DNA from: Aromatoleum petrolei
Lineage (GTDB): Bacteria > Pseudomonadota > Gammaproteobacteria > Burkholderiales > Rhodocyclaceae
NCBI RefSeq assembly: GCF_017894385.1
Contig: NZ_CP059560.1
Coordinates: 2,666,001-2,730,000 of the forward strand
Reading direction: 5' to 3'
DNA length: 64,000 nucleotides
Shown: positions 4,734 through 47,917 of the stretch, in pieces
Numbering within the stretch: the first letter of the stretch is position 1
How the letters are laid out: every line of letters starts with the position of its first letter
The notes under the pieces: generated by a model
The model's input: the letters and a program-made list of their open reading frames with translations, nothing else
Told to the model about the DNA's origin: nothing
Database searches by the model: none
Translations under genes and position numbers: made by a program

Positions 4734-5426
4734 TTACCAGGCGGGCGTCGTGGCCGCCGGCATGGGCGCCGGCGGCGGCAGCACGCCGCCCGAAACGGCC
4801 CACACCGCCAGGCCGGCGATCGCGAGGGCGACGAGCAGCGCCACCGGACCGCCGCCGCGTGCGGGCGGGATCGCCGGGTCATCGAACGCCTTCACGCCGG
4901 TGATCATCGGCGTGATTAGGTTGTCCTTCTTGACGTGGGTATGCCACAGCACCGCGGCGACGTGCAGACCGACAAGGCCGTACACGATCCATTCGGCCTG
5001 GCGGTGCAGCCCGCTGATCCAGGTCGACAGTTCGCTCGAGATCGCCTGGTAGAGGGGGCCGTAGAAGGCGATGTCGTCATTGGAAAAAGCGCCCGCGAGG
5101 GCCTGCCCCGCCATCAGCGACAGCAGCGCGACTGTCGACAGCGCGCCGAGCGGGTTGTGCCCGACGCCACGCCAGTGGCCCTTCAGATAGGCGCGAATCG
5201 CGGCGGGCGTAGGCAGGAACTGGGAGAAGCGCGCATAGGTCGAGCCGACCATACCCCAGACGATGCGGAACACGACGACGCCGAGGATCGCCAGCCCGAT
5301 GCGGCCATGCCATTCCATGGCGTTGCCGCCGATCTTCACGCTGATGACGGCACCTGCGACCAGCGCGACAAGCAGCCAGTGCGCGAGGCGGGTGGGGAGG
5401 TCCCACAGCAGGATGGGATGCTTCAC
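4734..5426 (-). CDS. cytochrome b561-type membrane protein
   Basis: The 230-residue integral membrane protein has about five hydrophobic segments and histidines placed as in the bacterial di-heme cytochrome b561 / Ni-Fe hydrogenase b-subunit family: LAHWLL near residue 15, MEWHGRIGL near 40, and GLHVAAVLWHTHVKKD near 155-170. It likely passes electrons between the quinone pool and a periplasmic partner such as a c-type cytochrome. The C-terminal tail is proline/alanine-rich. Its start overlaps the end of uvrA by four bases (ATGA), so it is translationally coupled to that gene, an odd pairing with no obvious functional link. Confidence 0.85.
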   Translation of the reverse strand: MKHPILLWDLPTRLAHWLLVALVAGAVISVKIGGNAMEWHGRIGLAILGVVVFRIVWGMVGSTYARFSQFLPTPAAIRAYLKGHWRGVGHNPLGALSTVALLSLMAGQALAGAFSNDDIAFYGPLYQAISSELSTWISGLHRQAEWIVYGLVGLHVAAVLWHTHVKKDNLITPMITGVKAFDDPAIPPARGGGPVALLVALAIAGLAVWAVSGGVLPPPAPMPAATTPAW

Positions 5427-8400
5427 GATTTTCTTCCCTTCTTGGTCTTGCCCGAGGCGACGGGTACCGGGGCGGCAGCGCCTCCCCCGTTAACAGCGCG
5501 CGCGGCGAGAAATTCCCCGAGGATGCGCGCGGTGTGCGAGCCGGAGGCCGAGCACACTTCCGCGACCGAACCTTGCGCGACGATGCGGCCGCCGCCGTCG
5601 CCGCCTTCGGGGCCGAGGTCGGTCAGCCAGTCGGCTTCGGCCATCACGTCGAGGTCGTGCTCGATCGCGAGCACGGTGTGGCCGGCGTCCGCCAGGCGGT
5701 GCAACACGCGGATGAGCTTGTCGACGTCGGCCATGTGCAGGCCGACGGTCGGCTCGTCGAGCACGTACAGGGTGTGCTTTTCGGGCGGGAGCGGACGGCC
5801 GCCGGTCTTGGCGCTCATTTGCGTCGACTCCCCGGCGCGGCCTCTGACCTTCGCCAGCTCGGTGACGAGCTTGATGCGCTGCGCCTCGCCGCCGGACAGC
5901 GTCGGGCTGGGCTGGCCGAGCGTCAGATAGCCGAGTCCGACGTCCTGCAGCAGCGCCAGCGGATGGGCGATCGACGGATGCGCGGCGAAGAAGTCGACGG
6001 CTTCGTCGACCGGCATCGCGAGCACTTCCGCGACCGATTTCTCGCGCCAGCGCACCGTCAGCGTCTCGGGATTGAAACGCGCGCCGCCGCAGGCGTCGCA
6101 GGGCAGCTTCACGTCGGGCAGGAAGCTCATCTCCACCGTGGTCTGGCCCTGGCCCTCGCATACCGGGCAGCGGCCGGCGCCGGTGTTGAAGGAGAAGCGC
6201 GACGCGTTCCAGCCACGTGTCTTGGCCTCGAAAGTCTCGGCGAAGAGCTTGCGGATCGCGTCCCAGAAGCCGACGTAGGTCGCGGGGCAGGAGCGGGGCG
6301 TCTTGCCGATCGGCGTCTGGTCGACTTCGAGCACGCGGCCGACCGCCTGCCAGCCTTCGATACGCGCGCAGCCGACGGGCTCCGCGGCGCTGGTCTGCGC
6401 CTCACCGCGGCGGCGGGCGCGCTGGGCGTCGGGGTCGCCGAGCAGGGCGTGCAGGCTGGCGTGGATCACGTCGCGCGCGAGTGTGGATTTGCCCGAGCCC
6501 GACACACCAGTGACGACGGTCAGGCGACCGAGCGGCAGGCGTGCCTCGACCGATTGCAGGTTGTGCAGCGTCGCCTTACGCACGACGAGGAAGGGGTGGT
6601 CGTTGCCAATCGGCAGCGGCGGGCGCATCGGATGCTGCAGCGGGGCGCGGAAGCAGGCGCCGGTCGCCGATTGCGGCGCCGCCATCAGGTCCGCGAGGCG
6701 GCCTTCGGCGACGACTTCGCCGCCGCGCACGCCGGCACCCGGGCCGAGGTCGATGACGTGGTCGGCGCGGCGGATGGTGTCCTCGTCATGCTCGACGACG
6801 AGCAGCGTGTTGCCGCGGTCGCGCAGCGCTTCGAGGGTGTCGAGCAGCATGCGGTTGTCGCGCGGGTGCAGGCCGATTGTCGGCTCGTCGAGGATGTAGC
6901 ACACGCCGCGCAGGTTGGAACCGAGCTGCGCCGCGAGGCGGATGCGCTGCGCTTCGCCGCCGGAAAGCGTCGGCGCGCCGCGGTCCAGCGCGAGGTAGGC
7001 GAGGCCGACCTGCTGCAGGAAGTCGAGCCGGCCGCGGATCTCGGCGACGAGGTCGCGCGCGATGTCGGTCTCGCGGCCTTCCAGGCTGAGGGTCTCAAAG
7101 AAGCCGGCGACCTTGGCGACCGGCTGCGCGGAGAGTTCATGGATCCCCAGTTCGCGAAAACGCACCGCGCGCGCGACCGGGTTCAGGCGCGCGCCGTCGC
7201 AGCTCGGGCAGACTTCGTCGGTGACCTGCTCGGTCTCGGCGAGGTCCAGCTCGTTGGCGTCCTCGACGCGGCCGATGGTGCGCTGGCCGGTACCGTAGCA
7301 GCTCTCGCACCAGCCGTGCTTGGCGTTGTACGAGAACAGGCGCGGATCCGGTTCCGGAAAGCTGTCGCCGCAGGACGGGCAGGCGCGCAGCGTCGAGAAG
7401 GTGTGGGGCGTCGCGCCGATCTTGCCGAGCTGCAGTACCTTGACGACGCCCTTGCCGTGCTCGAGCGCTTCGGCCAACTGCGTGCGCAACGCCGCCTCGT
7501 GTTCGGGGCCGACCACGACCATGCCGACCGGCAGCTCGATGGTGTGCTCGACGTAGCGGTCCAGGCGCGGCCATTTCGCCGTCGGCAGGTAGTCGCCATC
7601 GACGCGCAGCTGATCGTAACCTTTGCCCTTGGCCCATTTCGCGAGCGCGGTGTACAGGCCCTTGCGGTTCGTCACCAGGGGCGCCAGCAATTCCACCGAC
7701 GCGCCGCGGTAGTCGCGCAGGATCTGCGCCGCGATCGCGTCGAAGCTCTGCGGCGACACCGGCACGTCGCACTTCGGGCAGAACTGCGTGCCGAGCTTGA
7801 CGTACAGCAGGCGCAGGAAGGGCTGGATCTCGGTGAGCGTGCCGACCGTGCTCTTGCGGCCGCCACGGCTCACGCGCTGCTCGATCGCGACCGTCGGCGG
7901 GATGCCGAACAGCGCATCGACGTCGGGACGCGCCGCCGGCTGCACGAACTGCCGCGCGTAGGCGTTGAGCGATTCGAGGTAGCGGCGCTGGCCTTCGCCG
8001 AAGACGATGTCGAAGGCGAGCGTCGATTTGCCCGAGCCGGACAGGCCGGTGATGACGGTGAAGCGATCGCGCGGAATCGTCAGGCTGACGTTCTTCAGGT
8101 TGTGCTCGCGCGCGTGGCGGATCTCGATCGCAGGGGCCGCGACCGGGCGGTAGCGGGCGATCGGTTCGGCGACCACCGTGGTGGGCTTGCCGAGCGAACC
8201 GGCATAGGCACGCATCGCGACGCCGGTGTGCGACGCGGTGCAAGCCATGACGGTCTGCGGCGTGCCGGCGACGACGAGTTCGCCGCCGTCCTCGCCGCCT
8301 TCGGGGCCGAGGTCGATGAGCCAGTCGGCGGCGAGCAACACATCAAGGTTGTGTTCGATGACGACCAGCGCGTGGCCGGCGTCGAGCAGTTTTTCGAAGG

Positions 8401-11167
8401 CGCGCAAGAGCGTCGCGACGTCCTCGAAGTGCAGGCCGGTGGTCGGTTCGTCGAAGAGGAAGAGCAGGCGGCCGGCGTTGGTCCTGGCCTTTGCTTTCTT
8501 GCCCGACAGCTTCGCCGCATCGGCGAGATGGCCGGCGAGCTTGAGGCGCTGCGCCTCGCCGCCGGACAGCGTCGGCACCGGCTGGCCGAGCTTGAGGTAT
8601 TCGAGGCCGACGTCGGCGAGCGGCGCGAGCGCGGCCTGCACTGCGGGCTGGTCGGCGAAGAAGGCCAGCGCCTCCGACACGGTCATGTCGAGCACGTCGG
8701 ACACCGACAGGTCGCGCCAGGTCAGTTCCAGCACTTCGGGCCGATAGCGCTTGCCGTCGCAGTCCGGGCAGCGCAGATAGACGTCGGACAGGAACTGCAT
8801 CTCTACGTGCTCGAAGCCGGAGCCGGTGCAGGTCGGGCAGCGCCCGGTGCCGGAGTTGAAGCTGAAGGTACCAGGGGTGTAGCCTCGGCTCTTGGCTTCG
8901 GGCAGTGCCGCGAACAGGGAGCGGATCGCGTCCCAGGCGCCGACGTAGCTCACCGGGTTGGAGCGCGCGCTCTTGCCGATCGCGGACTGATCGACCATCA
9001 CGACGCCCGAGATGTGTTCCAGGCCTTCGAGGCGCGCAAAGGCGCCGGGGGCTTCGGTCGCCTGGCCGAAGTGCTTGGCGAGCGCCGGGTGGAGCACGTC
9101 CTGGATCAGCGTGGATTTGCCCGAGCCGGAGACGCCCGACACGCACACCAGCTTGCCGAGCGGGATTTCGATGTCGAGGCTGCGCAGGTTGTGCTCGCGG
9201 GCACCGACGAGGCGCAGCACAGGGTCGTCCTTGCCGACCGGGCGCAGCCTGCGGCCGGCGTCGACGCGTTTCTGGCCGGACAGGTAGGCGCCGGTTAGCG
9301 AGGCGGGATCGGCGGCGAGCTGGGCGGGCGGGGCGTAGGCGACGATCTCGCCGCCGCGTTCGCCGGGACCGGGGCCGATGTCGAGCAGGCGGTCGGCGGC
9401 GGACATCAGCTGCGGATCGTGTTCGACGACGACCAGCGTGTTGCCGGCATCGCGCAGCCGCGTCATCACCGCGAGGATGCGGTCGATGTCGCGCGGGTGC
9501 AGGCCGATGGAGGGTTCGTCGAGGACGAACAGGGTGTTCACGAGCGAGGTGCCGAGCGCGGTCGTGAGGTTGATGCGCTGGACTTCGCCGCCCGACAGCG
9601 TGCGCGACTGGCGGTCGAGGGTGAGGTAGGCGAGGCCGACATTGGCGAGGTAGTCGAGGCGGCTCCTGATCTCGCCGAGCAGGAGTTCGGTGGCTTCGTC
9701 GAGGCCCGACGGGAGTTCGACGCGAGCGATGAAGTCGCGGACGCGGCTCACCGGTTGGGCCATCAGCTCATGGATCGCCAATCCGGGTTTTTCTGCGGCG
9801 TGATTGGGGCTTCGATGCGCCGCCGCCGCGGGGGCTTCCGGTGCTCGTTGGACGCGTGGCGGACGCCTCGCCCCGGAAGCCCCCGCGTCGGCGGCTCCCT
9901 GGGGGGTGTTCTCGTCGGCGGTCGCCGTCTCGTTGGCTCTTTCTCCCAGGCGCCAGAGGAGGGCCTCCGGCTTCAGCCTCGCCCCCTTGCACGCCGGGCA
10001 TTCCGTGTAGCTGCGGTAGCGCGACAGCAGCACGCGGATGTGCATCTTGTAGGCTTTCGTTTCCAGCCAGTCGAAGAAATGGCGCACGCCATACCACTTG
10101 CGCGGCCAACTGGCCTCCCAGCTCTTCCATTCGGGGTCGCCTTCGAGGAGCCACGCGCGATGTTCCGGCGGCAGGTCGCGCACCGGCACGTCCATCGCGA
10201 CGCCGTACTTCTTCGCCATCTTCGCGAGGTCGTCCTGGCATTCGCGGTAGCTCGCGGTCTGCCAGGGTTTCACCGCGCCTTCGGCGAGCGTCTTCGATTC
10301 ATCCGGGATCACCAGCGAGAAGTCGACGCCGATCACGCGGCCGAAGCCGCGGCAGGTGTCGCAGGCGCCGATCGGGGAGTTGAAGGAGAAGAGGCCCGGT
10401 GTCGGATCGGAATAGTGGATGTCGCAGTCGGCACAGTGCAGGTCGCGCGAGAAGCGCCACACCGTCTCGCCGCCCTCCCCCTGCGCGCGCACCGCGAGCC
10501 GGCCGTGGCCATGGCTCATCGCCGTCTCGATAGCTTCGCTGACGCGGCTGCGTTCGGCGTTGGCGAAGCGGAAGCGGTCCTGCACGACATGCAGCAGATC
10601 GCCGCCGTCCGTCGTTTCGCGCGCGTGGATGCGCGTGTAGCCCTGCTGGTTGAGCAGCTGCGTGACTTCGTCTTCGGTAAAGTTCTTCGGCACCGGTACC
10701 GCGAAGGTCAGCACCAGGCGCGGATCCTCGGCTGCACAGCGTTCGGCCAGCGCCGCATGCACGCTGTCCGGGTCGTCGCGCCGCACCGGCTTTCCGCAGC
10801 CGCGGCAATAGAGCTTCGACGCACGGGCGTACAGGAGCTTGAAGTGGTCGGTCAGCTCGGTCATCGTGCCGACCGTGGAGCGCGAAGTGCGCACCGGGTT
10901 GGTCTGGTCGATCGCGATCGCCGGCGGGACGCCTTCGATGCGGTCGACCTGGGGCTTGTCCATGCGGTCGAGGAACTGCCGCGCGTAGGGCGAGAAGGTC
11001 TCGACGTAGCGGCGCTGGCCTTCGGCGTACAGGGTGTCGAAGACCAGCGAGGATTTGCCGGAGCCGGAGACTCCGGTGACGACCGTCAGCTCGTTCAGCG
11101 CGATGTCGAGCGAGAGGTTCTTGAGGTTATTCTGGCGCGCGCCGAAGATGCGGATGCGGTCGGACAT
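5423..11167 (-). CDS. uvrA: double-length excinuclease ABC subunit A
   Basis: At 1914 residues this is about twice the usual UvrA (about 940). It consists of two complete UvrA copies in one frame. Walker A motifs of the type GxSGSGKST lie near residues 36, 682, 1044 and 1555, and LSGGEAQR-type signatures near 525, 867, 1400 and 1755, giving four ABC ATPase units. Zinc-finger cysteine pairs are present in both halves (for example CPACKGAR and CPSCDGAR). The second copy begins around residue 1020 (HAREHNLKNVSL). UvrA finds bulky DNA lesions and loads UvrB in nucleotide excision repair. The first copy carries a 30-40 residue Ala/Pro/Arg-rich insert near 420-455 built on a DNA palindrome. Fused double UvrAs occur in some proteobacteria; whether both halves act in repair is unknown. 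Confidence 0.95.
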   Translation of the reverse strand: MSDRIRIFGARQNNLKNLSLDIALNELTVVTGVSGSGKSSLVFDTLYAEGQRRYVETFSPYARQFLDRMDKPQVDRIEGVPPAIAIDQTNPVRTSRSTVGTMTELTDHFKLLYARASKLYCRGCGKPVRRDDPDSVHAALAERCAAEDPRLVLTFAVPVPKNFTEDEVTQLLNQQGYTRIHARETTDGGDLLHVVQDRFRFANAERSRVSEAIETAMSHGHGRLAVRAQGEGGETVWRFSRDLHCADCDIHYSDPTPGLFSFNSPIGACDTCRGFGRVIGVDFSLVIPDESKTLAEGAVKPWQTASYRECQDDLAKMAKKYGVAMDVPVRDLPPEHRAWLLEGDPEWKSWEASWPRKWYGVRHFFDWLETKAYKMHIRVLLSRYRSYTECPACKGARLKPEALLWRLGERANETATADENTPQGAADAGASGARRPPRVQRAPEAPAAAAHRSPNHAAEKPGLAIHELMAQPVSRVRDFIARVELPSGLDEATELLLGEIRSRLDYLANVGLAYLTLDRQSRTLSGGEVQRINLTTALGTSLVNTLFVLDEPSIGLHPRDIDRILAVMTRLRDAGNTLVVVEHDPQLMSAADRLLDIGPGPGERGGEIVAYAPPAQLAADPASLTGAYLSGQKRVDAGRRLRPVGKDDPVLRLVGAREHNLRSLDIEIPLGKLVCVSGVSGSGKSTLIQDVLHPALAKHFGQATEAPGAFARLEGLEHISGVVMVDQSAIGKSARSNPVSYVGAWDAIRSLFAALPEAKSRGYTPGTFSFNSGTGRCPTCTGSGFEHVEMQFLSDVYLRCPDCDGKRYRPEVLELTWRDLSVSDVLDMTVSEALAFFADQPAVQAALAPLADVGLEYLKLGQPVPTLSGGEAQRLKLAGHLADAAKLSGKKAKARTNAGRLLFLFDEPTTGLHFEDVATLLRAFEKLLDAGHALVVIEHNLDVLLAADWLIDLGPEGGEDGGELVVAGTPQTVMACTASHTGVAMRAYAGSLGKPTTVVAEPIARYRPVAAPAIEIRHAREHNLKNVSLTIPRDRFTVITGLSGSGKSTLAFDIVFGEGQRRYLESLNAYARQFVQPAARPDVDALFGIPPTVAIEQRVSRGGRKSTVGTLTEIQPFLRLLYVKLGTQFCPKCDVPVSPQSFDAIAAQILRDYRGASVELLAPLVTNRKGLYTALAKWAKGKGYDQLRVDGDYLPTAKWPRLDRYVEHTIELPVGMVVVGPEHEAALRTQLAEALEHGKGVVKVLQLGKIGATPHTFSTLRACPSCGDSFPEPDPRLFSYNAKHGWCESCYGTGQRTIGRVEDANELDLAETEQVTDEVCPSCDGARLNPVARAVRFRELGIHELSAQPVAKVAGFFETLSLEGRETDIARDLVAEIRGRLDFLQQVGLAYLALDRGAPTLSGGEAQRIRLAAQLGSNLRGVCYILDEPTIGLHPRDNRMLLDTLEALRDRGNTLLVVEHDEDTIRRADHVIDLGPGAGVRGGEVVAEGRLADLMAAPQSATGACFRAPLQHPMRPPLPIGNDHPFLVVRKATLHNLQSVEARLPLGRLTVVTGVSGSGKSTLARDVIHASLHALLGDPDAQRARRRGEAQTSAAEPVGCARIEGWQAVGRVLEVDQTPIGKTPRSCPATYVGFWDAIRKLFAETFEAKTRGWNASRFSFNTGAGRCPVCEGQGQTTVEMSFLPDVKLPCDACGGARFNPETLTVRWREKSVAEVLAMPVDEAVDFFAAHPSIAHPLALLQDVGLGYLTLGQPSPTLSGGEAQRIKLVTELAKVRGRAGESTQMSAKTGGRPLPPEKHTLYVLDEPTVGLHMADVDKLIRVLHRLADAGHTVLAIEHDLDVMAEADWLTDLGPEGGDGGGRIVAQGSVAEVCSASGSHTARILGEFLAARAVNGGGAAAPVPVASGKTKKGRKS
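9819..9895. repeat. REP-like palindrome inserted in frame within uvrA
   Basis: Arms CGCGGGGGCTTCCGG (9827-9841) and CCGGAAGCCCCCGCG (9873-9887) are perfect 15-bp inverted repeats around a 31-base loop. The match extends outward to 22 of 23 positions per arm. The element sits inside the first UvrA copy and encodes part of an Ala/Arg/Pro-rich stretch (ASGARRPPRVQRAPEAPAAA) absent from ordinary UvrA. This looks like a mobile palindromic element captured in the coding frame. Confidence 0.7.
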
Positions 11168-12342: not shown

Positions 12343-13506
12343 TCATTTTACCGTTAGTTCTGAAAATTGCACCAGGGTCGACGCGAGGTCCTGCTGTTCG
12401 GCGAGCCCGTCCGACCAGCGACGCGTGTGCGGCGCAAGCCGCGGCAGCGCATCGGCGAACGCGGGCCACGCGGCGGCAAGGCTCCCTTCGCCGTTCCACG
12501 CCTTCCACAACGCACGCGTCGCTTCGGCTGCAGCCTCGTCGAGTCCGGCCAGGTAACGGGCGAGGAAGGCGTCGAGCTTGTCGTGATGCACGGCCTCGTC
12601 CTGCTCGTAGATGTGCCACGCGAAGGGCCGCGCGGCCCACTGCGCACGCACGAAGGAATCCTCGCCGCGCACGAAGTTGAGGTCGCATGCCCACAGCAGG
12701 CGGTCGTAGTCGGCGGAGTCGAGGAAGGGCAGGACGACCGTGCTCAGGGCACCCGCGGCGAGGATTTCGCCGGCCCGCGCTTCCGCGCGCCCGAAAAAGC
12801 GCAGCACGTCGCCCAGCACGCGGCCTTCCGGCACCAGCAGCAGGGTCGGGCGCGGCGCGTCGGCCCACAGGCGCAGCAGTTCCGGCAACTGCGGCTGCTC
12901 GTAGGCGAACAGCGACACGAGGCGGGCGCCCTCCGCGGGCACGGGAATGCCGCGGCCGGCGAGCCAGTCGCGCCGCACGGTCGCATCGGCCTGGAAGCGG
13001 TCGCGCGCTTCGAGCAGCCCGCCTTCGCGCAACAGCCCGCCGGTGTGCGCCGTGAAGCCGGGGAAGCAGAAACGTTTCGTCAGCGGCAGGCGCGGATGCG
13101 GCGAGGCCAGCCCGTGGCAGCCCTCGACCCAGTCCTCGGCCGACAGGTATTCGAGGTTGATCCACTGCGACCGCGGCGTCGTGGCGGCCATTGACTCGAC
13201 GTAGGACGCGGGCGGCTCGCAGGCGAAGGCCTCGACGACCGCGCGTGCCGGCATCACCCCGGGAAAGGGTTCGCGCCAACGACGCACTTCGACGCCCTCC
13301 ACCCGCACGGCGTCGCCCGCCTCGGCGGCCGCCGGACACAGGCGCGCGAAGGTCCCCCAGTCGTCCACCCACAGCCTGACCGAGCACCCGTGGTCGTGCG
13401 CCAATGCCTTGGCCAGCCGCCAGCAGACGCCGATATCCCCGAAGTTATCCACAACGCGACAGAAGATGTCCCAGTCGAAGGCGGGCGCAGCGTCGGCAAG
13501 GCTCAT
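12343..13506 (-). CDS. earP: EF-P arginine rhamnosyltransferase
   Basis: The 387-residue glycosyltransferase (GT104 type) transfers rhamnose from dTDP-rhamnose to Arg32 of EF-P. The N-terminal start motif [20 protein letters not shown] contains the Asp residues known to be needed for catalysis. The nucleotide-sugar site [12 protein letters not shown] followed by [10 protein letters not shown] lies near residues 265-290. I place the start at 13506 because the 30 residues encoded upstream are unlike the family. The gene lies directly upstream of efp. A perfect DnaA-box 9-mer (13445-13453) falls inside its early codons for VVDN, which can be a coding coincidence. Confidence 0.95.
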
Positions 13507-13540
13507 GGCAGTGGACAAGTGCGGGAAAACGGCAGGAATG

Positions 13541-13732
13541 CTTTGTGGGAAAAGGGCTGGATCGGAGTGGACCGGAAAACCGGCCACAATCGACACACAG
13601 GTGAACGGGGGGTTTATCTACGGAGTTTTACCGCCCCGGAGTCCCCGCAGGGACTGGCGAAGCCGGACTTATCCACAGAAAAGGCGACACTCTATATATC
13701 TTTATCTTTTAATTAAAACAAACTACTAAAAG
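13541..13732 (+). repeat. module A of diverged tandem origin-like repeat
   Basis: This module starts with CTTTGTGGGA. It continues with CACAATCG, CACACAGGTGAAC, TCTACGG and CCGCAGG, then the box ACTTATCCACAGAA at 13668-13680. An AT-rich tract with CTTTATCTTTTAA follows. Every conserved block recurs exactly 530 bases downstream in module B without a gap. Confidence 0.7.
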
Positions 13733-14070
13733 CAAAACCCCCGAGCACGGCTGCAGGGCAAACGCACACGGTTTCTTCGGGCGGGCGTTGCGCAGCGTGC
13801 CCCGCCAAGCGGCCGTGCAAGACACCATCGACGAGGCAAAGCGGTGCACTTGCCACGGTCGGCCTTTGGCTGCTCCCGCCCGATGACCTTGCATACCTTG
13901 CAGGCGATCCGATGGCAAGACCGGTCCCAGCCGCACATCCCGCTCGTGGCCGCCATCACCGGCTGCAAACCGAATACGTGCACGATCTCGCGTTCAAGGC
14001 ATCGCGCGGTGCCCATCCCCCTCCCTGGACGGGGCTCCGGTGGATAAGTCCGTGGAGGAGCAGAGGGAGA

Positions 14071-14268
14071 CTTTGTGGGAAAGGACCGAAAATTCGTGAA
14101 CAGCCGAAACGGGTCACAATCGCCACACAGGTGAACCTGCCACTTGTCTACGGGGTTCTACAGCGTCGAAAACACCGCAGGCATTGGCGGATCGGGACTT
14201 ATCCACAGAATTTGGCCGCCTATCTTCTTCTTTATCTTTTAAATTTAAAGAAATACAGAAGAACAAAC
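14071..14268 (+). repeat. module B of diverged tandem origin-like repeat
   Basis: This is the second copy of the module, in the same orientation. My hand alignment of 180 columns finds 117 identical positions and no insertion or deletion. The conserved blocks (CTTTGTGGGA, CACACAGGTGAAC, ACTTATCCACAGAA, TCTTTATCTTTTAA) keep their spacing while the bases between have changed. That pattern suggests protein-binding constraints. Confidence 0.7.
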
Positions 14269-14501
14269 ATGAGGCTGCGGGAGCCGGTCGGGGTGCCCCC
14301 GGAAAGGGACGCTCCCCCGCAGCAGAGGAGCGTGGACTGCAGAAAAGGGGAAAGCAGCAAGCGGAAGCAATGCTGCGGGTTTTGCGGCGTAGGGCGGGAG
14401 GGGCCGGACGGGGATCCCGCCACGTCACGCGGATATCGGGTCCAAAGGTGGATATGGCGGGATTCGCTGCGTTGCCCCCGCCCTACGCGCACACCGACCG
14501 C

Positions 14502-15218
14502 TCAGGCGGTCTCGTCGTAATCGGCGAGGCGGGCCAGGTCGGCTTCGTCCAGCCAGCGCCAGTCGCCCGGCGCAAGATCGGCGGCCAGGGCGAGACCGCC
14601 CACGACGCTGCGATGCAGGGCCTCGACGCGGTTGCCCGCCGCAGCCAGCATGCGCTTCACCTGGTGGTACTTGCCTTCGGTGATCGTGAGCCTTAGACTC
14701 CGCTCCCCCGTTTTGAGGCAGGCCGATGCAGCGATCGGTGCCGGCTCGTCGAGGAGTTCGACCCCTGCGAGCAACGCGGCGATCAAGGCGTCGTCCACCG
14801 GGTGCTTGGTCGTGACTTCGTACACCTTGGGCGTGCGCTTCTTGCCGGAGCTCCAGCGGTGGATGAACTGGCCGTCGTCGGAGAGCAGCAACAGGCCGGT
14901 GGTGTCTTGGTCGAGCCGCCCGACGCATTGCACGTCGCGGTTCGCCAGCATGTCGGGCAGCAGCGCGAACACCGAGGGGTGGAACTGGGGCCGGCGCGAG
15001 CACTCGTAGCCGGCGGGCTTGTGCAGCACCAGGTAGGCCTTTTCGCGATAGACCCAGGTTTCGTCGTCTACGCTGAATTCGAGGCCCTCGGGCGCGAAGT
15101 CTTCGGCAGGGTTGTCGAGGATCCGGCCTGCGACAGCGACCAGGCCGGCACGGATCAGGGCGCGGCATTCCTTGCGGCTGCCGAACCCCTGGGAATGGAG
15201 TAGTCGTTCGATCTGCAT
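14502..15218 (-). CDS. rsuA: 16S rRNA pseudouridine synthase (RsuA family)
   Basis: The 238-residue enzyme isomerises a uridine of 16S rRNA (U516 in E. coli). An S4 RNA-binding domain spans about residues 1-55 (RLLHSQGFGSRKECRALIRAG). The catalytic domain has GRLDQDTTGLLLLSDDG, where the first Asp is the catalytic nucleophile, and KYHQVKRMLAAAGN as the conserved motif III. Length and layout match RsuA rather than RluB or RluE, though paralogue assignment is by eye. It is divergent from the SRPBCC gene. Confidence 0.88.
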   Translation of the reverse strand: MQIERLLHSQGFGSRKECRALIRAGLVAVAGRILDNPAEDFAPEGLEFSVDDETWVYREKAYLVLHKPAGYECSRRPQFHPSVFALLPDMLANRDVQCVGRLDQDTTGLLLLSDDGQFIHRWSSGKKRTPKVYEVTTKHPVDDALIAALLAGVELLDEPAPIAASACLKTGERSLRLTITEGKYHQVKRMLAAAGNRVEALHRSVVGGLALAADLAPGDWRWLDEADLARLADYDETA

Positions 15219-41597: not shown

Positions 41598-43025
41598 TCA
41601 TCCGCGCAGCACCTGCGTCAGCACGTGCACGTCGTGGTTGAGCTGCTGGTCCGCGAGGCGCAGGTCCGCGATCGTGCGGCAGGCGTGCAGCACGGTGGTG
41701 TGGTCGCGTCCGCCGAAGGCCTCGCCGATCGCCGGCAGCGACATCGGCGTGAGGTCCTTGGCGAGCCACATCGCGACCTGGCGAGGGCGGGCGATCACGC
41801 GCGTGCGCTTCTTGGAGTGCATGTCGGCGACCTTGATCTTGTAGTAGTCGGCGACCGTCTTCTGGATATGCTCGATGGTGAGCTGGCGGTTGTGCGCGTT
41901 GAGCAGATCCTTGAGCGCGTCCTTCGCCACCTCGAGCGAGATGCCGCGGCCGTGGAAGCGCGCGAAGGCGACGACCTTGTTGAGCGCGCCTTCGAGCTCG
42001 CGCACGTTGGAGCGCAGGTTCTTGGCGATCAGGAAGGCGACGTCGTCGGTGAGCTCGACGCGCAGCGCCTCGGCCTTCTTCTGCAGGATCGCGACGCGCA
42101 TCTCGAGCTCGGGCGGCTCGATCTGCACCGTGAGGCCCCAGTCGAAGCGGGAGATCAGGCGATCTTCCAGGCCCTGGATGTCCTTGGGATAGGTGTCGCA
42201 GGTGATGACGATCTGCTTCCTCGCCTCGGTGAGCGCGTTGAAGGCGTGGAAGAACTCTTCCTGCGTGCGGTTCTTGTTGTTGAAGAACTGGATGTCGTCG
42301 ATCAGCAGCAGGTCGAGCGAGCGGTAGTAGCGCTTGAACGCGTCGAAGCTCTTCTGCTGGTAGGCGCGCACGACGTCGGCGTAGTAATCCTCGACGTGCA
42401 CGTAGCGGATCACCGCGCGCGGGTTGCGCTTGTACACGGCGTTGCCGATGGCGTGCACGAGGTGGGTCTTGCCGAGGCCGACGCCGCCATAGACGAACAG
42501 CGGGTTGTAGGACGTGCCGGGGTTCTGCGCGACCTGCATCGCGGCGGCGCGGGCGAGGTCGTTGGCGCGGCCGGTGACCAGGGTGTCGAAGGTGAAATCG
42601 GGGTTGAGACGCGTCTTCTCGTAGGCGAGATCGGCCGAACTCGCGGTGGGTTCGGGCTCGGCGCGCACGATGATCGCGGGCGCGGCGACCGGCGCTGGGG
42701 CGACGTTCGCGGCCGTCTTCTCGGCGGCGACCGGCATCACCGGTGCCACCGTGCGGGGGGCGGCGCGCGTGTTGCCGGCTTCGGACATCACGAGCTCGAG
42801 CGGCATCGGGCCGCCGTGGAACTCCTCGCCGAGCTCGGCGATGCGCTTGAGATAGCGTTCGCGCACCCACTGCATGACGAAGCGGTTGGGCGCGAACAGG
42901 CGCAGTGACGGTTCGTCGCTCGTGCCGGCCTCCGCACTTAGCGTCTTGATCCAGGTGTTGAACTGCTGCGGCGGCAGTTCACTTTCAAGGCGCGACAGGC
43001 AGAAGGACCAGAAATCTTGACTCAC
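41598..43025 (-). CDS. dnaA: chromosomal replication initiator DnaA
   Basis: With a GTG start at 43025 the protein is 475 residues and begins [20 protein letters not shown], matching domain I. The AAA+ domain has Walker A in [10 protein letters not shown] and Walker B in [10 protein letters not shown]. Domain IV ends with [14 protein letters not shown], the DnaA-box-binding signature. An upstream ATG at 43106 would add 27 residues not seen in the family. It binds TTATCCACA boxes, one of which lies in its own upstream region (43236-43244). Confidence 0.97.
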
Positions 43026-43235
43026 GGACTCGAAGGCTAGGGCTTGTGACACGATTTCCAATAACGCCTCGTTCCGGCCGGCCGCTGCGATGGAAGGCAG
43101 CGACAAGGAGCAACGATGGCGCGAGTGTGTTTCGGGGGCATCCCGGCTGCCGGTGGCGCGCGACGGGCCGTGATCGGCAGTGCGCGAAGGGCGGGCGGGA
43201 AAGGAAACGCTCGATTCTACCCCCGCACGTCAGAG

Positions 43236-43244
43236 TTATCCACA
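43236..43244 (+). promoter_or_regulatory. DnaA box upstream of dnaA
   Basis: A perfect TTATCCACA lies 211 bases upstream of the dnaA GTG in the 300-base dnaA/rpmH gap. A weaker relative, TTATCCAAT, is at 43280-43288. One perfect box suits autoregulation of dnaA. I find no dense box cluster or long AT-rich tract in this gap. Confidence 0.75.
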
Positions 43245-43264
43245 GCCTGGGGTAAAAATTGTGC

Positions 43265-47901: not shown

Positions 47902-47917
47902 TGTTCCACGTGAAACA
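47902..47917. promoter_or_regulatory. parS-like centromere site 2
   Basis: TGTTCCACGTGAAACA matches 15 of 16 positions of the parS consensus and is intergenic. It lies 813 bases from site 1, with one gene between them. Confidence 0.85.

Follow-up and report, generated by a model that had tools for sequence, protein, structure and literature searches.

In a stretch of Aromatoleum petrolei DNA we describe a locus between earP and an rsuA-like pseudouridine synthase gene that is very probably the chromosomal replication origin, oriC, displaced from dnaA. The whole stretch analysed, called the window, comprises 64,000 nucleotides (NZ_CP059560.1, positions 2,666,001 to 2,730,000). The locus consists of two homologous modules, each with a DnaA box beside an AT-rich tract. 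The support is computational. It comes from the density of DnaA boxes, the AT tracts, conservation in the genus and the family with fixed spacing, and a skew test in seven genomes, and from these we infer that replication initiates here. An earlier note on this DNA had proposed a bipartite oriC away from dnaA. The same four lines of evidence uphold the displaced origin, whereas the word bipartite has to be narrowed: the origin is best read as a tandem pair in 11 of 17 genomes of the genus, and since a second module was not found in the remaining six, bipartite is a lineage-specific description. In addition, in the genome from which the window comes (G000; other G numbers denote sampled relatives) the skew optimum does not coincide with the modules.

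The two modules are clearly related. At an offset of 530 bp, positions 13541-13720 and 14071-14250 share 117 of 180 identities with zero gaps, exactly as had been counted before. A 280-bp comparison gave 155 identities at this offset and at most 98 at the other offsets from 500 to 559. When module 1 was used as a BLASTN query against the window, module 2 was found at E 1.5e-19, and the next non-self match had an E value of 0.42. The elements CTTTGTGGGA, CACACAGGTGAAC, TTATCCACA and CTTTATCTTTTAA, which the earlier note had listed, are all present in register in both modules. The order is fixed; a TTTGTGGG element is followed by CACACAGGTGAAC, then come a TT[AG]TCTACG site and a perfect TTATCCACA box, and an AT tract containing CTTTATCTTTTAA is last. 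These core modules are real, but the unit is larger than first drawn. Box-like GTGGACAAG and GTGGATAAG lie at 13511 and 14040, upstream of the left edges reported earlier, and therefore each unit starts before the edge that had been placed at 13541. A third perfect box was found at 13445 in earP, 224 bp upstream of the box at 13669.

Perfect DnaA boxes are rare in this genome. The 5.41 Mb contain 16 of them (12 forward and 4 reverse; the backward-read control gave 4 and 5), and perfect TTATCCACA occurs in the window at 13445, 13669, 14199 and 43236. Three of only 16 perfect boxes thus lie inside 763 bp, far more than chance would give (Poisson, 2e-9 for a span of 755 bp), and together with the weak sites they form the cluster above genome background that is expected of an oriC. 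The relaxed motif TTWTNCACA occurs at 5 sites in the window, with 0.31 expected from shuffles. AT tracts 1 and 2 are the lowest-GC 50-mers of the window (10 G+C each; the next lowest has 16) and begin about 10-14 bp beyond a perfect box, so that an AT-rich element, putatively for unwinding, adjoins the box cluster. Modules 1 and 2 constitute two separate DnaA-box clusters, as in a bipartite oriC. The dnaA/rpmH gap, as stated before, contains one perfect box (43236), whose role is perhaps dnaA autoregulation. It had also been said to have no long AT tract; this is roughly right, although its 50-mer at 43253, with 17 G+C, is among the window's lowest.

The locus is conserved in relatives with fixed spacing. 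A BLASTN search with 13500-14300 matched every one of the 17 genomes of the same genus, and the 64 other genomes of that sample gave no match; the named close relatives are Aromatoleum and Azoarcus species, and the NCBI family of Aromatoleum is Rhodocyclaceae. Absence from close relatives, which would have spoken against an origin, was thus looked for and not observed. The earP box and the module-1 box are separated by 224 bp in 16 genomes of the genus and by 225 bp in the remaining one, G014. Where two modules were found, they lie on different contigs in one genome (G001), and in the nine genomes with both inner boxes perfect and on one contig the inner boxes are 410-629 bp apart. The genomes in which a single module was found are G005, G007, G008, G009, G010 and G011. 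Direct pairs of perfect boxes 200-230 bp apart occur in 59 of 297 family genomes, representing 13 of 68 genera, and the backward-read control gave 0. In an order-wide sample this pattern was found in 9 of 250 genomes including G000, with 1 match in the backward control. Among 16 pair loci inspected in detail, the first box falls within the conserved EarP motif in 13 (not in G048, G169 and G031). In G142 the box pair is in earP, no AT tract follows the second box, and the best match to the model described below is elsewhere on the contig.

Nineteen units from five genera, hand-chosen from the available loci, were aligned over 305 columns almost without gaps (alignment A3). A sequence-only model built from these 19 rows, R1, was searched at E <= 0.01 and matched 235 of 297 family genomes in 57 of 68 genera, training genomes counted. 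The position of the TTGTGGGAAA element is occupied by a perfect box, TGTGGATAA, in G138, G224 and G218. In several genera a second R1 match was listed near the first, either in tandem (e.g., G255, G084 and G138) or inverted and 2.4-3.7 kb away (e.g., G133, G114 and G236). In G133 (C1:94300-97500) the inverted second module lies past an rdgC-like gene, judged by eye from the gene start, and the two AT tracts face each other. Weaker matches were also observed elsewhere. One directly adjoins dnaA in G173 (C1:1577294-1577523), a genome whose best R1 match is 24 kb off, and others lie about 1.4-1.7 kb from the record start in G127, G035 and G375. Such weak matches beside dnaA or near record starts perhaps represent an ancestral dnaA-adjacent origin.

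Conservation follows the modules and not the DNA between them. Mean pairwise identity is 0.873 for module 1, 0.830 for module 2 and 0.900 for the earP end, and 0.515 with 36% gaps for the spacer (8 of the 11 two-module genomes, 28 pairs; G001, G013 and G014 left out). Open reading frames were called mechanically between the halves, in this unconserved stretch. In a tree of 27 modules, nine rows of module 1 group apart from nine rows of module 2, the two clades having supports of 99/99 and 99/100. The tree was made without the second module of G014, and the placement of G013, G014 and G010 is unsure. The split between the clades indicates that the duplication predates these nine species. The earlier view that this is unlike a recent simple duplication therefore holds, as spacing was kept, the spacer drifted and the copies split before the nine species diverged.

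The outer box is embedded in a protein-coding gene. All 8 loci compared from Aromatoleum, Azoarcus and Pseudothauera use the codons that make it, GTT-GTG-GAT-AAY. None of the 9 loci from Pseudomonas, Massilia, Methylophilus and Rhodoferax, which have the same or nearly the same residues, does so. The earP gene of the window prefers GAC over GAT 22 to 5, yet the box codon is GAT. In G013, GATATCCCCGAAATTATCCACAA (the box with its left flank) is kept before module 2 in non-coding DNA, while the rest of the earP sequence is gone. From its sequence, the earP box looks as if it had been selected as DNA. G013 is also the only one of the nine genomes measured for both modules in which module 2 has an outer box at 224 bp. 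The perfect inner box is replaced by TTTTCCACA in G014. The features are listed in the table below.

Features of the earP-rsuA locus and the dnaA region (window coordinates; + forward, - reverse,. no strand)
Feature	Position	Strand	Remark
Module 1, whole unit per model R1	13435..13736	+	G000:C1:2679435-2679736, E 1.4e-61; R1 training row
Perfect DnaA box in earP coding sequence (codons V-D-N of the VVDNFGDIG motif)	13445..13453	+	
Box-like element GTGGACAAG, weak site, reverse orientation	13511..13519	-	Recurs in alignment A3
TTGTGGGAAA element, weakly DnaA-box-like (TTTCCCACA, 2 mismatches)	13543..13552	-	Also in alignment A3
CACACAGGTGAAC element, module 1	13594..13606	+	
TTATCTACG, weak DnaA-box-like site, 2 mismatches	13614..13622	+	
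Perfect DnaA box beside AT tract of module 1	13669..13677	+	
AT-rich tract 1, putative DNA unwinding element	13687..13736	.	10/50 G+C
Module 2, without the left-most box of module 1	14037..14267	+	R1: G000:C1:2680037-2680267, E 1.0e-30; non-training row
Box-like element GTGGATAAG, left edge of module 2	14040..14048	-	
CACACAGGTGAAC element, module 2	14124..14136	+	
Perfect DnaA box beside AT tract of module 2	14199..14207	+	
AT-rich tract 2, putative unwinding element	14221..14270	.	10/50 G+C; fits the DnaA-trio rule
earP (EF-P rhamnosyltransferase), carries the first DnaA box	12343..13506	-	Pfam PF10093, E 2.2e-152
rsuA-like pseudouridine synthase, right border of the locus	14502..15218	-	Pfam PF00849, PF01479
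dnaA, 5' end about 29 kb from the modules	41598..43106	-	Pfam PF00308, PF08299, PF11638
Sole perfect DnaA box of the dnaA/rpmH gap	43236..43244	+	

Beyond the rsuA-like gene lie an AtaL-family gene and then rdgC. The window also encodes, at 5423-11167, a UvrA-type protein of 1914 residues with repeated ABC ATPase parts, which we take to be about twice the usual UvrA length.

Genome records are often numbered from dnaA, with the origin assumed there. In G002, G012, G014, G042, G133 and G104, dnaA opens the record and the module is about 12-113 kb away. In the 12 of 17 genus genomes with both on one contig the distance is about 27-98 kb, and the orientation of the module relative to dnaA varies by lineage, the inverted segment being about 55 kb or more. 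This separation and inversion allow the two origin candidates to be told apart. Raw cumulative GC skew is too noisy near the origin, and therefore a strand-corrected test was used. Third-position GC skew was modelled as gene strand plus replication side over 240-424 kb around the region in seven of the 17 genus genomes, with crudely called genes and four weightings (plain, without uvrA, equal and capped). Whichever of the four weightings is applied, the module is the better fit to the skew switch in 7 of 7 genomes, ahead of the dnaA gap by 2.5-13.4 log units with plain weights, and this is so in both orientations of the inverted segment. The lead is 13.4 log units in G011, 9.4 in G005 and 10.3 in G008, where module and dnaA are 64-83 kb apart; these three genomes carry near-copies of the module, so that the seven are not independent. 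When the genomes were summed, the joint best switch was 0 kb from the module without uvrA and with equal or capped weights, and -8 kb with plain weights, an optimum decided by one long gene, uvrA. The earlier note had named a skew switch at the dnaA gap as an outcome opposed to its proposal; it was looked for, and the gap was not favoured in these genomes.

Several observations weigh against this origin assignment. The exclusion of uvrA was picked after the profile had been seen. Single-genome optima with plain weights are at -70 kb in G000, -22 in G012, -38 in G014 and -24 in G002; they are at -70, -22, -26 and -24 kb with equal weights and at -70, +28, -38 and -24 kb without uvrA, respectively. 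In G014 the module is 13.8 log units under the best point with plain weights. The raw cumulative skew minimum lies 71 kb from the module in G000, 77 in G002, 64 in G012 and 33 in G014, and about 9 kb from it in G005, G008 and G011. Minima of the cumulative count of GGGNAGGG, which we take to be the E. coli FtsK-orienting polar sequence (KOPS) motif, are about 120 kb off in G000, 35 in G011 and 54 in G005, over regional stretches (whole-genome counts of this KOPS-like motif are 447 forward and 515 reverse). In 10 of 10 genomes, parS-like sites accompany dnaA at a distance of 4-13 kb instead of lying at the module, which places the partition site about 34-115 kb from the putative origin. R1 gave zero matches in 62 of the 297 family genomes. 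In the order-wide sample it matched 134 of 250, mostly weakly, and some of the listed matches are confined to roughly model positions 1-60, which correspond to earP coding sequence. These matches mix weak origin-like ones with pure earP coding ones, and no origin count was drawn from them.

Two details of these regions were seen separately. In G000 the best-fitting switch (2-unit set) covers C1 2604000-2662000, about 17-75 kb past the modules and away from dnaA; a rearrangement or an island there is possible. A parS-like palindrome with one mismatch lies at 47902-47917 of the window, 4.7 kb from the dnaA gap.

Some of these points would be expected if the locus were a DnaA-titrating or regulating site, like datA or DARS (DnaA-reactivating sequences), near an origin that is itself in the dnaA/rpmH or dnaA/dnaN region. 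Dense boxes distant from dnaA, parS-like sites that stay with dnaA, a perfect box just upstream of dnaA in several of the listed relatives and a skew optimum off the module in 4 of 7 genomes are all compatible with this. We nevertheless consider it improbable, because in every genome tested the skew switch is fitted less well by the dnaA gap than by the module, because that gap has one perfect box, and because two strong AT tracts stand beside the boxes in register. The datA-like sink that the earlier note had offered as its alternative accounts for neither the skew switch nor the AT tracts. It is still more improbable that the locus is a control region of earP or rsuA that carries DnaA boxes by accident. 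It is upstream of earP and could contain the earP promoter, but neither a sigma-70-type promoter nor a terminator pattern was found in 13300-14600, Rfam at gathering thresholds gave zero matches in the whole window, and such a region would explain neither the skew result nor the box in earP nor the duplicated unit.

A functionless duplication, recent or by chance, has next to no plausibility. The duplicated stretch does include the AT tracts and two of the three perfect boxes, but the age of the copies, their conservation with their spacing beside a drifted spacer, and the recurrence of the 224-bp geometry in other genera argue against it. A variant of the displaced origin, not exclusive of it, deserves more weight and is still rather unlikely: module 1 may be the sole origin and module 2 a decaying or regulatory copy. 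The genus genomes with one module, the lack of an outer box in module 2 and the altered inner box of G014 point that way. Module 2 is, on the other hand, nearly as conserved as module 1 and far above the spacer, forms its own well-supported clade in nine genomes, and has, of the two AT tracts, the one that agrees better with the DnaA-trio rule.

The trio rule requires a box with at most two mismatches, a spacer of 0-16 bp and at least three NAN trios, as given in a passage of PMC8287927. In all 10 module-2 rows, six trios follow a spacer of 14 bp; among 500 shuffled tails, 0-10 did as well. All 11 module-1 rows have a single trio and do not fit the rule within the allowed spacer. Single-module species have three trios in 5 of 6 rows, matched by 127-150 of 500 shuffles, and G010 has one. 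The rule is permissive, and the rows are homologous and thus count as about one observation per group. As we read them, the sequences agree only in part with the strict 3'-[G/A]A[T/A]-5' consensus. These differences raise a tentative possibility, to which we give slightly more credit than to module 1 alone, that the modules are functionally diverged tandem origin units, each with its own unwinding tract. Module 1 would have its outer box fixed in earP and a TATATATA-type tract, and module 2 a DnaA-trio-type tract; one might gather DnaA and the other open, or either might fire. If so, a coding gene would be permanently bound to the geometry of an origin.

In the displaced oriC that we propose, DnaA would bind the perfect box in earP, the weaker middle sites and the perfect box beside the AT tract. 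The fixed distance of 224 bp would allow bridging DnaA to join outer to inner box, probably through looping. DnaA would then load on one strand of the AT tract and open it for helicase loading, with opening starting at one of the AT tracts, perhaps the one in module 2. The tandem duplication of the unit in this lineage is old and both copies persist, which would make the origin bipartite, with an AT tract per half. In B. subtilis the outer box is thought, according to part of PMC6669920, to act via a helically phased loop, and by analogy this may serve as a model for the fixed 224-bp spacing.

A probable origin present in many genomes of the family, with a box fixed in a protein-coding gene and a long-lived tandem duplication, amounts to a natural experiment on the halves of a bipartite origin, and one-module and two-module species are directly comparable. 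None of the papers searched dealt with the replication origin of this group; a DoriC prediction may exist. We hold the origin reading with high confidence, and what would be new is an oriC variant with homologous tandem halves away from dnaA, each with an AT tract.

Compared with known systems, the locus shares with datA and DARS of E. coli the presence of DnaA boxes away from dnaA. These sites titrate or recharge DnaA and are not known as replication starts or skew switches. The E. coli oriC has a different gene neighbourhood and is single copy. It likewise lies away from dnaA, as noted in a section of PMC8287927. By the published rule, module 2 resembles the basal unwinding system of B. subtilis in its perfect box, its spacer of 14 bp and its six NAN trios, whereas module 1 does not fit the rule. 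In the bipartite oriC of Bacillus subtilis, Helicobacter pylori and Clostridioides difficile, as here, two DnaA-box clusters are proposed as one origin with an AT-rich element beside a cluster. In the published cases, as far as the sections of PMC4285127 and PMC7561715 describe them, the clusters are usually separated by dnaA and the unwinding element is in one of them. Here, the halves are about 27-98 kb from dnaA, homologous to each other and in one earP-rsuA gap. Thus, the locus resembles a bipartite origin and is not of the described type, as there is an AT tract in both halves.
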